64,000 nt of DNA from the NCBI RefSeq assembly GCF_003544815.1, contig NZ_CP032100.1, forward strand, positions 124,001-188,000. The letters are read 5' to 3'. Made by a program: the position numbers and the translations under genes. Below are positions 7,254-33,507 of this stretch, one piece after another. Position 1 is the stretch's first letter. Each line of letters starts with the position of its first letter. This DNA comes from Arcobacter suis CECT 7833 (lineage in GTDB: Bacteria; Campylobacterota; Campylobacteria; Campylobacterales; Arcobacteraceae). The notes under the pieces were generated by a model. It did no database searches and was not told the DNA's origin. It saw only the letters and a list, made by a program, of their open reading frames with translations.

Positions 7254-7287
7254 AAAAAGGGTGAGTTTAAGAACTCACCCTTTTTTT
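7254..7287. terminator. Bidirectional terminator between purM and the GAPDH-like gene
   Basis: A perfect 14-bp stem (7254-7267 with 7272-7285, core GGGTGAGTT) has a TAAG loop. Runs of A before it and T after it let it work on both strands. It overlaps the last codon region of the convergent GAPDH-like gene, whose stop lies at 7275-7277. Confidence 0.9.
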
Positions 7288-8297
7288 ATGTTCTTATAAT
7301 AATTTAGAATCTCCACAACTTTAGAAGCATAACCCCATTCATTGTCATACCAAATTAAAAGTTTAATCATATTATTTATAACTTCAGTGTATCTATGGTC
7401 AATTATTGTTGTGAATTTTTCTTTTTTAAAATCACTTGAAACCAAAGGCTCAAAATTATTTAAAACTATTGGGAAGTTTTGATTCTTTTCATACTCTTCA
7501 AAAAGCTCAATTATCTCATTTTTTGTTGATTTTTCTTTTGTAAACAAAGTTACATTTATAGCTCCAACTGTATCTGTTGGAACTCTTAGGGAACTTGAAC
7601 TTATTAAGTTCTGATTGATATTTGGAAGTACAAAAGAACAAGCTTTTATGGTTGTTGTTTTATTTGGAATAATATTTTGAGTTGAAGATCTACCAAACTC
7701 AAAGTTACAATTCACTTCTCTTGTATCACTTTTTACAAAACTTCCATCAAGAACTCTTTGATGATTTAATAAAGGATGAACAGTAAGAATATCTCCACAT
7801 AAAATCTCTTTTTTATCATTTATAAGTTTTAAAGCAGGAAGTAGGGCTGTTGCATTACATGAACTTGTAGAGATGATTTTGTGAATATTTGGATTTAATT
7901 CTTTTTCATTTACTCCCAAAATTATGTTTATATCAGCTTTATTATTTGGGTGAGTTAAAAATATTGCTTTTACAGGAAGATTTTTTAAAAGATTAATATC
8001 CTCTTTTTTACCACTTGAATCAATAATAATATCAATATTTGTTAAATCAATTTTATCTAAAAAATCAAAGTTTGTGATTTTTATTTTTGATGTTGAGTTC
8101 TGAATATAGTTATTTTCAACGATTTTAAATCTATCTTCATATTTTCCATATGTTGAATCATAATTTATTGAATAAACTATATTTTCAATATATGGATTTA
8201 TCTCATTTATTATAACTATTTCAAAATCTTTATTTGAAACCAACTGTTTTAAAACAGCTTTACCGATTCTACCAACACCATTTAAAAGAATTTTCAT
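7275..8297 (-). CDS. Divergent glyceraldehyde-3-phosphate dehydrogenase-like protein
   Basis: A 340-residue NAD(P)-dependent phosphorylating dehydrogenase of the GAPDH/Epd superfamily. The N-terminal NGVGRIGKAVL dinucleotide motif (about 6-16), Cys147, His174, SSSLRVPT and the C-terminal WYDNEWGYA are present. The catalytic region reads STSSCNATALLP, whereas true GAPDH has SNASCTTNCLAP. HPLLNHQRVLD stands in place of HAYTGDQ, and NIIPNKTTTIKA in place of NIIPTSTGAAKA. The H..xxHQ..LD pattern is closer to erythrose-4-phosphate dehydrogenase. It may be a side-branch enzyme (for example for pyridoxal phosphate) or a second GAPDH. No glycolytic genes are next to it. Confidence 0.75.
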   Translation of the reverse strand: MKILLNGVGRIGKAVLKQLVSNKDFEIVIINEINPYIENIVYSINYDSTYGKYEDRFKIVENNYIQNSTSKIKITNFDFLDKIDLTNIDIIIDSSGKKEDINLLKNLPVKAIFLTHPNNKADINIILGVNEKELNPNIHKIISTSSCNATALLPALKLINDKKEILCGDILTVHPLLNHQRVLDGSFVKSDTREVNCNFEFGRSSTQNIIPNKTTTIKACSFVLPNINQNLISSSSLRVPTDTVGAINVTLFTKEKSTKNEIIELFEEYEKNQNFPIVLNNFEPLVSSDFKKEKFTTIIDHRYTEVINNMIKLLIWYDNEWGYASKVVEILNYYKNIKKG

Positions 8298-8342: not shown

Positions 8343-9047
8343 TTATACTTTAGCCATTTCGATAAATAAAAAGTGCGAATTTTCCAAAGCTTTTATTTCT
8401 ATTTTTTTAATATCAATTATTTCCATTGCATCACCAGCATTTAAAGTAATTTCATTTATATTTGAACTTCCTTCAATTTGTACAAAATAAACTTGTCTAT
8501 TTTCTTTGATTTCAAACTCTAAAGATTTATTAATTTCAAGTTCACTAACATAAATATTTATATCTTGATAGATTTTTATATCGGCAGTTCCATCAGTGCT
8601 TGAAACAATATTTAAAAACTTATTGATTCTATCTTTTTCTTCATATCTTTTTGAGCCATAAAGTCTAGGAAGACCAGCTTTTGGAGGAATAATCCAAATT
8701 TGCAAAAGTCTTAAATCATTACTTTTATGAACATTATGTTCACTATGATATATTCCATCTCCTGCACTTAAATATTGAACTTCTCCTCTTTTTAAAGTCT
8801 CAGAATTTCCCATAGAATCTTTGTGAGTAATCTCTCCATTTACAACATAAGAAATGATTTCCATATTTGCATGAGGATGAGTGTCAAACCCAGATTCAGG
8901 ATGAACAATATCATCATTTAGAACTCTTAAAACTCCAAAATTCATATTATTTGGATTTCTATATTCTGCAAATGAGAAATGAAAACGGCTTTCTAACCAA
9001 CCTAAATTTGATGTTCCCATATTTTCTTTTGGTAATTTTTTTAACAT
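8343..9047 (-). CDS. Pirin family protein
   Basis: A 234-residue bicupin. The N-terminal pirin domain holds the metal-binding set HPHANMEIISYVVNGEITHKDSMGN (about residues 57-81, pattern HPH...H) and a further histidine/glutamate pair in YHSEHN. Related pirins such as YhhW degrade quercetin-like flavonoids or act as redox-sensing cofactors. The gene is last in the yceI-dioxygenase-pirin operon; its ATG lies inside the end of the dioxygenase gene (7-base overlap), with AAGGAG as ribosome site. The operator upstream of yceI links it to the MarR regulator at 10440-10892. Confidence 0.88.
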   Translation of the reverse strand: MLKKLPKENMGTSNLGWLESRFHFSFAEYRNPNNMNFGVLRVLNDDIVHPESGFDTHPHANMEIISYVVNGEITHKDSMGNSETLKRGEVQYLSAGDGIYHSEHNVHKSNDLRLLQIWIIPPKAGLPRLYGSKRYEEKDRINKFLNIVSSTDGTADIKIYQDINIYVSELEINKSLEFEIKENRQVYFVQIEGSSNINEITLNAGDAMEIIDIKKIEIKALENSHFLFIEMAKV

Positions 9048-9817
9048 GTTAACTCCTTGTCAAAAATAAAACTTTCCATTGAGATATTTGAATACAACAT
9101 CTCACTATTAAATGATTTTCCTTTTTTATTTATAGCATTTCCAAAAGCTATAAATATAGGTAAAAAATGCTCAATCGAAGGATGATTTTTATAAAAATTT
9201 ATATTTTCTTGAATATTTTTTAACTTTTCTTCTTTTGCATTTTCAATAATATCAATCATATCATCATTAAATTCTTTTGCGTAATTTCTTATGTTTGGAT
9301 TCATACTCATATCACCTAAATTATGGGTAATTCCACCACTACAAATAATCAAAGCTTCATTTTTAAATTGTTGAAGTTTTTCTCCTAATTCTATTAATTG
9401 GTTTATATTATATGAAGTAGGAATACTTATTTGTAGTACTGGAATTTCAAGATGTTCATACATTAATGCAAGAACATTCCAAACTCCATGGTCATAACTT
9501 TTTTTATTTTCATCGATTGAGATATTAATATTCTCTTTTTTTAATTTTTCGATTAAATTTAAAGTTAATTTCTCATCACTATTTATTTCATATTTTACTT
9601 TATATAATTCATCTTCAAAACCGTAAAAATCATACATAATTTTATTTGCTTCTGGACTAATGATTTTTAAATCTTTTGTTAAATAATGGGCAGAAAATAT
9701 AATTATATATTTTGGTTTTTCTAAACTATCTGCTAATTTTTTTATATTTTGTTTAGATTTTATATCACTTAAAATTATATTTGGAGCACCATGCGAAATA
9801 AATAGTGTTGGATTCAT
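9041..9817 (-). CDS. Class III extradiol ring-cleavage dioxygenase (YgiD/LigB type)
   Basis: A 258-residue cytoplasmic metalloenzyme of the 4,5-DOPA dioxygenase family, which opens catechol-type rings. Visible metal-site motifs are FISHGAPN (His9), FSAHYL (His44), YDHGVW and GGITHNLGDM, all in the family's positions. Length matches YgiD (about 260). It begins 2 bases after yceI and overlaps pirin, so the three are one operon. With a MarR-type regulator beside it, a role in removing toxic catechols or quinones is likely. The substrate cannot be read from sequence. Confidence 0.87.
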   Translation of the reverse strand: MNPTLFISHGAPNIILSDIKSKQNIKKLADSLEKPKYIIIFSAHYLTKDLKIISPEANKIMYDFYGFEDELYKVKYEINSDEKLTLNLIEKLKKENINISIDENKKSYDHGVWNVLALMYEHLEIPVLQISIPTSYNINQLIELGEKLQQFKNEALIICSGGITHNLGDMSMNPNIRNYAKEFNDDMIDIIENAKEEKLKNIQENINFYKNHPSIEHFLPIFIAFGNAINKKGKSFNSEMLYSNISMESFIFDKELTC

Positions 9818-9819
9818 GA

Positions 9820-10386
9820 TTATTGTGCTAAAACACCCTCAATATCAATCGCTAATTTAACTTCATCAGATACAGCAACTCCACCTGTTTCTAAAGCTTT
9901 ATTCCAAGTTAAACCAAAATCACTTCTTTTAATTTTTCCATTAAGTGAAAAACCAGTTCTTTGTTTTCCCCAAGGATCTTTAATTACAGAACTTGTTTCT
10001 AAATCAAGTTTGATATTTTTGGTTACGCCTTTCATAGTGAAATCACCATAAACTGCATCTTTTTCAATTTTTGTTGATTTAAAAGTAATTTTTTGAAATT
10101 TTGCAACATCAAACATATCTTCAGCTTTTAAATGTTCATCTCTTTTTTCATTTGCTGTGTTAATTGAAGCAACAATAATTTCTCCATTTATTGATATTAA
10201 TGTATTTGTTTTTTCATCAAATTCAAAAGTTCCAGCAATGTCGTTAAATTTACCAGTAACATTTGTAATCATCATATGTTTTACTGTAAAACCAGCATTT
10301 GTATGACTTGCATCAACATTATAATTACCTGCAAATAACGCAGTTGAAAGAGCAATTGATGCTAAACTTAATTTTAAAATTTTCAT
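9820..10386 (-). CDS. Periplasmic YceI family protein
   Basis: A 188-residue lipocalin-like protein with a cleavable signal peptide (MKILKLSLASIALSTALFAG, cleavage near residue 19). The YceI signature follows: YNVDASHTNAGFTVKHMM (about 21-38), then KGVTKNIKLDLE and FGLTWNKALETGGVAVSDEVKL near the C terminus. Family members bind isoprenoid quinones or other amphiphiles in the periplasm and are often induced by stress. It is the first gene of the operon with the dioxygenase and pirin. A palindromic operator lies 24 bases upstream of its ATG. Confidence 0.93.
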   Translation of the reverse strand: MKILKLSLASIALSTALFAGNYNVDASHTNAGFTVKHMMITNVTGKFNDIAGTFEFDEKTNTLISINGEIIVASINTANEKRDEHLKAEDMFDVAKFQKITFKSTKIEKDAVYGDFTMKGVTKNIKLDLETSSVIKDPWGKQRTGFSLNGKIKRSDFGLTWNKALETGGVAVSDEVKLAIDIEGVLAQ

Positions 10387-10409: not shown

Positions 10410-10423
10410 TTACTAATTAGTAA
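10410..10423. promoter_or_regulatory. Probable MarR operator in the yceI promoter
   Basis: The perfect 14-bp palindrome TTACTAATTAGTAA lies 24 bases upstream of yceI, immediately downstream of and touching a TAATAT -10-like box (10423-10428, minus strand). The same 14 bases occur in the marR promoter at 10917-10930. Identical dyads at the two ends of marR point to one regulator controlling both units. Confidence 0.8.
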
Positions 10424-10439
10424 TATTAAAGCAAAAAAA

Positions 10440-10892
10440 TTAATTTGCTTTGTAAACTTTATTCAATAAATCATATAAAGTATTTAATTCTTCATCACTT
10501 AAAACTTCCAACATATGAGTCAGATTTTTTGCATGATTTGGAAAAACCTCTTCAATAACATTTTTTCCTTTTTGAGTAATAGATAATATGAATGCTCTAC
10601 TATCATTTGGGTCTTTTATTGAAGTTATCCATTCATCTCTTTTTAGATTTTTAACAACAACAGTTATATTTCCAGGTGTACTCATAGTTAATTTTGTAAT
10701 TGAACCAATATTTAAATCACCTCTGTGATATAAAACTTCTAATACTTTAAATTGATTAAATGTAAGATTATGTTTTGATAAATAATTAACAGTCAAATTT
10801 GTAATTTTTAAACTGGCTTTTTCTAATCTAACAACAGTTTTCATAGCTTTGTCAGTTCTAGTTCCATAAGATTTTAACGATTTTTTATTCAT
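10440..10892 (-). CDS. MarR family transcriptional regulator
   Basis: A 150-residue winged-helix repressor. The DNA-binding core is visible as LTFNQFKVLEVLYHRGDLNIGSITKLTMSTPGNITVVVKNL (about residues 43-83), followed by the wing DPNDSRAFILSITQKG. MarR proteins dimerise and release DNA on binding phenolics or on thiol oxidation; cysteine is absent here, so ligand binding is more likely. The ATG at 10892 was preferred to one two codons upstream, because AAGGAG is 7 bases from it and only 1 from the other. It probably represses itself and yceI-dioxygenase-pirin. Confidence 0.93.
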   Translation of the reverse strand: MNKKSLKSYGTRTDKAMKTVVRLEKASLKITNLTVNYLSKHNLTFNQFKVLEVLYHRGDLNIGSITKLTMSTPGNITVVVKNLKRDEWITSIKDPNDSRAFILSITQKGKNVIEEVFPNHAKNLTHMLEVLSDEELNTLYDLLNKVYKAN

Positions 10893-10910
10893 AAACATAC
10901 TCCTTTTGAA

Positions 10911-10939
10911 ATTATATTACTAATTAGTAATAAAGTCAA
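10911..10939 (-). promoter_or_regulatory. marR promoter with operator filling the spacer
   Basis: On the minus strand a -35 TTGACT (10934-10939) and a -10 TATAAT (10911-10916) are separated by exactly 17 bases. The spacer plus one flanking base is an 18-bp perfect palindrome (10915-10932) around TTACTAATTAGTAA. Binding there would block RNA polymerase, which is the classical autorepression layout. Confidence 0.85.
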
Positions 10940-33066: not shown

Positions 33067-33507
33067 TTAGGCTTTAATTTCACACTTTTTGCATCTAGCA
33101 TCAAAACTATATTTACCCGCACCAATAAACATAATTGAAATTGAAGCTAAAAGATAAATTAATGCTAATTCAATTACTGGACCACCACTTTTCCCTAAAG
33201 CAAAAAGTTCACTACCATGAGCTAAAAATATTGCAAAAACCATAGTTAAAGCAAAAAACAGCGATGAAATTCTAGTAAAAAGCCCAAGAATAATTAAAAT
33301 AGGGAAAACAATTTCTCCTAAATAAACTCCATAAGCTACAAACTCAGGAAGACCAGCACTTGTAACTAAAAATTTTATACCATCAATTCCATTAAAGAAT
33401 TTAAAAAATCCATGAAATAACATAAGTCCAGCAATAGATAATCGTAAAATTAATTTTCCAATATCTTCATTTAAAACAGATTCTAATTTGTTTTCAAAAC
33501 AAGTCAT
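33067..33507 (-). CDS. DoxX family membrane protein
   Basis: A 146-residue inner-membrane protein with four membrane segments and the family pattern RLSIAGLMLFHGFFKFFNGIDGI (about 23-45) and EIVFPILIILGLFTRISSLFFALTM (about 66-90). DoxX proteins are poorly understood; some act with redox or stress systems. The C-terminal ARCKKCEIKA has a CxxC pair, which is unusual and could bind metal or be redox-active. The start follows AAGGAATTATTAA. A TACAAT box followed by CGCGA lies just upstream. Confidence 0.85.
   Translation of the reverse strand: MTCFENKLESVLNEDIGKLILRLSIAGLMLFHGFFKFFNGIDGIKFLVTSAGLPEFVAYGVYLGEIVFPILIILGLFTRISSLFFALTMVFAIFLAHGSELFALGKSGGPVIELALIYLLASISIMFIGAGKYSFDARCKKCEIKA

Follow-up and report, generated by a model that had tools for sequence, protein, structure and literature searches.

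A palindrome flanking a MarR-type gene of Arcobacter suis as the predicted operator of marR and of a yceI-dioxygenase-pirin unit

The genome of Arcobacter suis CECT 7833 carries a 14-bp palindrome, TTACTAATTAGTAA, in exact copies at positions 10410-10423 and 10917-10930 of the window (the whole stretch of 64,000 nucleotides that was analysed), and a MarR-family repressor is encoded between these two copies, whose coordinates agree with those given in an initial annotation. Judging from comparisons among relatives, this palindrome very probably serves as operator for the MarR protein whose gene lies between the two copies. The initial annotation had also predicted autorepression of marR and joint control of yceI, dioxygenase and pirin, and both predictions gained strong support from the conservation of the sites across genera and from the presence of operators before the same kinds of genes elsewhere. 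Autorepression of marR is thus predicted with high confidence, and control of yceI-dioxygenase-pirin by MarR with a confidence only slightly below it, while the full explanation, in which a two-site MarR operator, release by a quinone- or catechol-type compound and operon induction are combined, is regarded as quite probable. The features of the locus, from the marR promoter onwards, are the following.

10934-10939, minus strand: -35 hexamer TTGACT of the marR promoter, recognised by sequence and by the conserved geometry in relatives
10915-10932, no strand assigned: O1, putative operator, 18-bp palindrome TATTACTAATTAGTAATA including the 14-mer (10917-10930) and the 12-bp core (10918-10929), recognised by uniqueness in the genome and by conservation
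10911-10916, minus strand: -10 hexamer TATAAT of the marR promoter, with the 17-nt spacer occupied by O1
10440-10892, minus strand: marR, MarR-family repressor of 150 aa (PF01047, 44.9 bits, cut-off 24.6)
10410-10423, no strand assigned: O2, putative operator, palindrome of 14 bp in the marR-yceI gap, ahead of the ribosome-binding site of yceI
9820-10386, minus strand: yceI, YceI-domain protein of 188 aa (PF04264, 158.1 bits), the first predicted target gene
9041-9817, minus strand: gene for a LigB-type extradiol dioxygenase of 258 aa (PF02900, 107.1 bits)
8343-9047, minus strand: gene for a pirin of 234 aa with a quercetinase-type C-terminal cupin (PF02678, 109.5 bits; PF17954, 79.9 bits)
7275-8297, minus strand: glyceraldehyde-3-phosphate dehydrogenase (GAPDH)-like gene, 45 bp after pirin

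The probable start of marR is the ATG at 10892, which is better spaced from a GGAG sequence, although the longest frame begins at 10898. The AlphaFold2 model of the protein presented a mean pLDDT of 92.4, and its top Foldseek and VIA matches were MarR-type regulators. Only 2 bp separate yceI from the dioxygenase gene, and the dioxygenase and pirin genes overlap. The LigB-type protein scored 131.8 with a DOPA-dioxygenase model, below the cut-off of 233. The GAPDH-like gene, which perhaps forms the end of the operon, was found downstream in 28 of the 66 loci compared, many of the others being cut too short to show one.

From the sites, their conservation, the promoter geometry at O1, the gene families and the pocket residues, we infer how binding, repression, ligand response and the action of O2 would proceed. 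A MarR dimer at O1, between the -35 and -10 hexamers, would keep RNA polymerase off the marR promoter, so that MarR would repress its own gene and the entire marR-yceI-dioxygenase-pirin unit would come under its control. O2 is located immediately ahead of the yceI ribosome-binding site, and a second dimer bound there would provide a gene-proximal block, either by halting polymerase that arrives from marR (a roadblock) or by covering the start site of an internal promoter. The pocket between helices would accommodate a ligand of quinone or catechol type, in the manner of MhqR and with no cysteine chemistry, and MarR would be released. In this way, YceI, the ring-cleaving dioxygenase and pirin would be switched on, with FMN reductase or DoxX added in relatives.

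The genome-wide search for the 14-mer proposed in the initial annotation was carried out on the single contig of 2,639,269 bp and returned only the two copies flanking marR, against about 0.09 expected under a first-order Markov model of the window composition (0.5 for the 12-mer). The 12-bp core, TACTAATTAGTA, was likewise found twice in the genome, and its reversed control was not found at all. A third 14-mer site appeared genome-wide at one mismatch, within an 837-aa reading frame. Near-matches were in no excess, neither for the 14-mer in the window at three mismatches (18 versus 19.75 expected) nor for the 12-mer in the genome at one mismatch (6 versus 20 for the reversed control), and therefore the exact sites alone carry meaning. 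Four one-mismatch 12-mers considered as further targets were dropped, since the total of 6 lay below the 20 of the control. As far as exact sites show, the predicted regulon in the Arcobacter suis genome looks like a single locus.

The association between the site and this regulator was also observed in relatives. MarR orthologues were present in 31 of 60 near genomes (E ≤ 1.1e-48) and in 38 of 298 genomes sampled from the class (E ≤ 1e-30), and each of the 31 near genomes had the exact 12-mer upstream of marR. Among 66 distinct loci with a marR orthologue, which span at least four families (f1, f6, f16, f20), 65 had an exact TACTARYTAGTA upstream of this gene, at protein identities as low as 42%. 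As the loci were searched with the consensus itself, ten core positions are invariant by construction, and the finding is the presence of an exact match in 65 of 66 loci. The central two bases were AT in 58, GT in 6 and AC in 1 of these 65, and the adjoining base was free. A promoter resembling TTGAC(A/T)-N17/18-TATAAT surrounded the operator in 63 of the 66 loci. In the locus with no upstream site (L141, in its longer cut L181), marR had moved behind pirin; there, yceI was preceded by two operators, of which one had the TTGACA-TATAAT arrangement. The set was composed with L181 in place of L141 and without L081-L088 and L004-L033 (from genomes already represented by L034-L063 and the window), L182-L185 (extended cuts of loci that had been counted) and L097, L146, L147, L157 and L158 (identical genes); the related loci counted are not independent of one another, and the sites of genomes G153, G223, G249 and G268 are known as positions only.

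These counts leave next to no probability for a palindrome that arose by chance or neutrally in an AT-rich genome. Such an origin would agree with the near-matches, whose numbers did not exceed those of shuffled sequences or of the reversed control, but it is contradicted by the two genome copies flanking marR, by the counts in near genomes and by the consensus upstream of marR in all but one of the loci, nearly always in the same promoter geometry and with bases adjoining the core that vary freely. That the site is used by another DNA-binding protein is also very improbable, even though other MarR proteins are present in many of these genomes and the use of the site by this one is a prediction. 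In fact, the site tracks this MarR, since every near genome with an orthologue has it at the gene, whereas the 29 near genomes without a match at that level presented 4 exact sites (versus 3 for the reversed control), all of them single copies and two of them in incomplete genomes of the same genus. Moreover, in L184 the operator was found at the marR promoter although yceI was not adjacent. Assignment of the palindrome to the MarR encoded beside it is therefore the reading adopted here.

At the marR promoter of Arcobacter suis, the palindrome grows to 18 bp and nearly fills the 17-base spacer, just as the initial annotation had described; of the 17 bases that separate TTGACT from TATAAT, 16 fall within O1, which also takes in the first two positions of the -10 hexamer. 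In the 63 loci sharing this geometry, the -35 was TTGACA in 56 and TTGACT in 7, and the -10 was TATAAT in 52. To our knowledge, Campylobacterota promoters are described as being without a conserved -35, and the TTGACA/TTGACT box found at marR in 63 of 66 loci is unusual for this group. An extra operator copy was located 30 or 40-44 bp farther upstream of marR in 11 loci, at a distance of about three or four helical turns.

Operators were also found at genes away from marR. The 31 near genomes with an orthologue harbored 62 exact 12-mers, distributed among marR (31), the adjacent yceI (17), a second yceI unit (2), doxX (9) and other places (3, of which two lay within reading frames and one between ATPase gene fragments), against a reversed-control total of 15. 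The operator was present in 9 of the 28 doxX promoters examined (out of 30 doxX loci), or 9 of 23 in the genus, and all nine operator-bearing doxX genes belonged to genomes whose marR locus is without O2 (9 of 13). The gain or loss of regulon membership could be traced at doxX. In the window, the doxX gene at 33082-33507 on the minus strand (PF07681) had a best upstream match with 3 mismatches, whereas nine orthologues of the same genus have the exact operator; its control by this MarR was consequently rejected. Six of the operator-bearing doxX genes (L065, L068-L071, L074) adjoin an iron superoxide dismutase (SOD)-like gene, recognised by eye; an association of DoxX with SOD is known in mycobacteria.

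The consensus was also found in every one of 29 more distant orthologue-bearing genomes, all outside the genus of the window, with 67 sites in total versus 36 for the reversed control, so that for this degenerate consensus isolated sites outside promoters weigh little. Fourteen of the 67 sites, in nine places, were located away from marR; 13 preceded target-type genes and one lay within a reading frame. The eight target-type places corresponded to yceI (L195, L197), FMN reductase-pirin (L192-L194), FMN reductase (L196) and ADP-ribosylglycohydrolase (L190, L191, the latter with an interrupted frame). The survey of displaced target-type genes devoid of a site covered doxX only. Because the putative operator precedes them away from marR, FMN reductase and DoxX are joined to the predicted regulon by the operator and not by neighbourhood alone.

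The second site differs from O1 in several respects. O2 stops at 14 bp, with no further extension of the palindrome. An O2-type copy was found in 44 of the 66 loci, between marR and yceI or after marR if no yceI follows, and the marR-yceI gap in the loci with O2 was 41-72 bp (40 loci measured), with 13-42 bp from the end of O2 to the start codon (43 loci with an assigned start). O2 was missing in 22 of the 66 loci; among relatives, L142 has a one-mismatch copy. Nineteen O2-less loci had a measured gap, which was of at most 22 bp in 15 and of 40-49 bp in 4, and O2 was absent from all 15 loci with the short gap, a distribution compatible with both a roadblock and an internal promoter. The O1-O2 spacing varied from 493 to 531 bp, mostly 506-511 bp, and DNA looping is not decided by this spacing. 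A scan for an intrinsic terminator between marR and yceI found none. The initial annotation had placed the 10410 copy in a yceI promoter, and this label did not hold for a promoter of the classical kind: the best score at this copy was 9 of 12, and the region contained 20 promoter-like matches versus 22.3 in shuffles. The best E. coli-type score at O2 was 7-9 of 12 in all 44 loci, which is also where most of 2000 random flanks fell (drawn with one AT-rich letter composition). O2 as the operator of an E. coli-type promoter is thus unsupported and, since its scores are no better than those of random flanks, the site is not part of another promoter built like that of marR. From its sequence context, O2 is a predicted gene-proximal operator rather than a site in a recognisable E. 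coli-type promoter.

Regarding the sensor, the best PDB match of the Arcobacter suis MarR was Staphylococcus aureus MhqR (9QDR/9SMZ, E 1.2e-18), followed by a match at 2e-12, and profile A1 also ranked MhqR first (1.8e-23, the next 4.5e-16). According to excerpts of PMC12893000, MhqR has no conserved cysteine, and its methylbenzoquinone pocket is formed by F11, F39, E43 and H111, of which F11 is needed for sensing in vivo, while single pocket mutants still bind the quinone in vitro. The pocket residues alone therefore leave the ligand unsettled. These four positions align to V22, F50, E54 and H122 of the Arcobacter suis protein. F50, E54 and H122 were invariant in 65 of 65 orthologues (60 distinct sequences), and the trio was found in 0 of 20 paralogues, a chosen subset of 59 weaker MarR matches. 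The F11 position, on the other hand, was not conserved in the 65 orthologues (V in 34, W in 21, I in 8, A in 1 and T in 1). The Arcobacter suis MarR has zero cysteines; 56 of the 65 orthologues have none and the other 9 have one, which fits the earlier suggestion of ligand release instead of thiol oxidation. The quinone or catechol reading of the initial annotation was also favored, with MhqR as the nearest solved relative, three pocket residues shared, and FMN reductase and DoxX in the wider regulon. As the three residues are invariant in orthologues and the trio is missing in paralogues, a quinone- or catechol-type ligand is considered moderately likely.

The comparison with MhqR, a MarR-type quinone sensor of S. 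aureus and B. subtilis, revealed both likenesses and differences. It is the closest solved sequence, with 28-30% identity, and shares the lack of a conserved cysteine, three of the four quinone-contact residues and dioxygenase targets, the MhqR regulon including dioxygenase and azoreductase-type targets in excerpts of PMC12893000 and PMC6798810. However, excerpts of PMC6798810 describe the MhqR operator as a 9-9 bp TATCTCGAA-aTCGAaATA placed from -6 to +12, in contrast to TACTARYTAGTA here, which at O1 occupies the -35/-10 spacer. In addition, the pocket residue F11 is replaced in the Campylobacterota protein, the predicted targets are YceI, the LigB-type dioxygenase and pirin, and MhqR belongs to Bacillota. 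The Arcobacter suis MarR, with its predicted binding and ligand, likely works like MhqR, yet it is not classed as MhqR in view of its different operator and one divergent pocket residue. HpaR, the MarR-fold regulator of the homoprotocatechuate operon, was the best NCBIfam match (TIGR02337), and membership was rejected, the 56.5 bits being well below the cut-off of 121.2. HpaR controls aromatic ring-cleavage genes. A fold match was also found with the UrtR-type regulators MftR, PecS and HucR, 8ylg being first, and these share the ligand-pocket site and the idea of an allosteric loop (excerpts of PMC12893000), but the sequence match to MftR was much weaker (2.5e-07 for 8ylf, the same protein as 8ylg).

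Two parts of the mechanism have serious competitors. At O2, the chances of a roadblock instead of an internal promoter are even, and those of a separate yceI promoter of Campylobacterota type, carrying a T-rich element and having its start site covered by the operator, fall a little short of even. Campylobacter promoters contain a T-rich element. The consensus built from the 44 loci shows a run of T 11-16 bp before O2, with at least 80% of the loci having TTT at positions 11-13, TTTTTTTGCTTTAATAT precedes O2 in the window, and the operator of MhqR itself covers a start site in the excerpts of PMC6798810 (-6 to +12). Against such a promoter, no conserved -10 was found downstream of O2 in the alignment of the 44 loci, and the E. 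coli-type scores there stayed at 7-9 of 12, versus 12 of 12 at 46 of the 76 upstream (marR-promoter) sites. Regarding the ligand, the regulon could be real and respond to an aromatic acid or a urate-like or lipid-like molecule in a generic MarR pocket, a possibility that we consider rather unlikely. YceI proteins are lipocalin-like lipid binders, and F11 of MhqR is not conserved in the orthologues. In the fold comparison, the model was roughly equidistant from MhqR, MftR and several other MarR proteins, with MftR, HpaR, PecS and several aromatic-acid binders level with MhqR, and the pocket site is common to MarR proteins that bind salicylate or urate (excerpts of PMC12893000). However, MhqR is clearly first by sequence in both searches, and it alone has F, E and H at the three positions among the five best PDB alignments, as read from them. 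FMN reductase, dioxygenase, DoxX and pirin, matched as families, would also suit quinone or catechol removal by their presumed chemistry. A quinone- or catechol-type ligand is therefore retained as the favored reading.

Among the literature matches listed, titles and the beginnings of abstracts contained no description of this operator or gene set, nothing joining MarR with YceI and pirin and nothing with the operator string; PMC4349456 and PMC7755780, as far as their excerpts go, are unrelated to this system. In the present analysis, a gene set of unknown purpose, found repeatedly in Arcobacter-type bacteria, Sulfurospirillum and at least two other families, is given a predicted regulator, operator, list of targets and class of ligand. 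Should the ligand prove to be a quinone, cysteine-free sensing of the MhqR type would also exist beyond Bacillota, with another operator code, and a physiological role in handling quinones could be assigned to YceI and pirin. A broader and quite speculative possibility is a regulon, recurrent in several Campylobacterota families, whose MhqR-like sensor, free of cysteine and with an operator of its own, would watch for quinone damage, perhaps to the cell's own respiratory quinones, and would activate a YceI protein that binds isoprenoids, together with ring cleavage, flavin reduction and DoxX, through a two-operator lock, at the promoter and just before the first target gene.

The loci of relatives also varied in their neighbouring genes. 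One or two added yceI paralogues were found upstream of marR, between it and the aminotransferase gene, in L043-L046, L052-L055, L057 and L060-L062, with no site at up to one mismatch upstream of these paralogues. A LysE-type exporter gene (PF01810 tested for L090) preceded marR on the same strand in L041, L051, L090, L092-L094 and L096, and an extra operator lay between the two genes in all of these loci except L041. In L096, an ADP-ribosylglycohydrolase gene was observed downstream of pirin.
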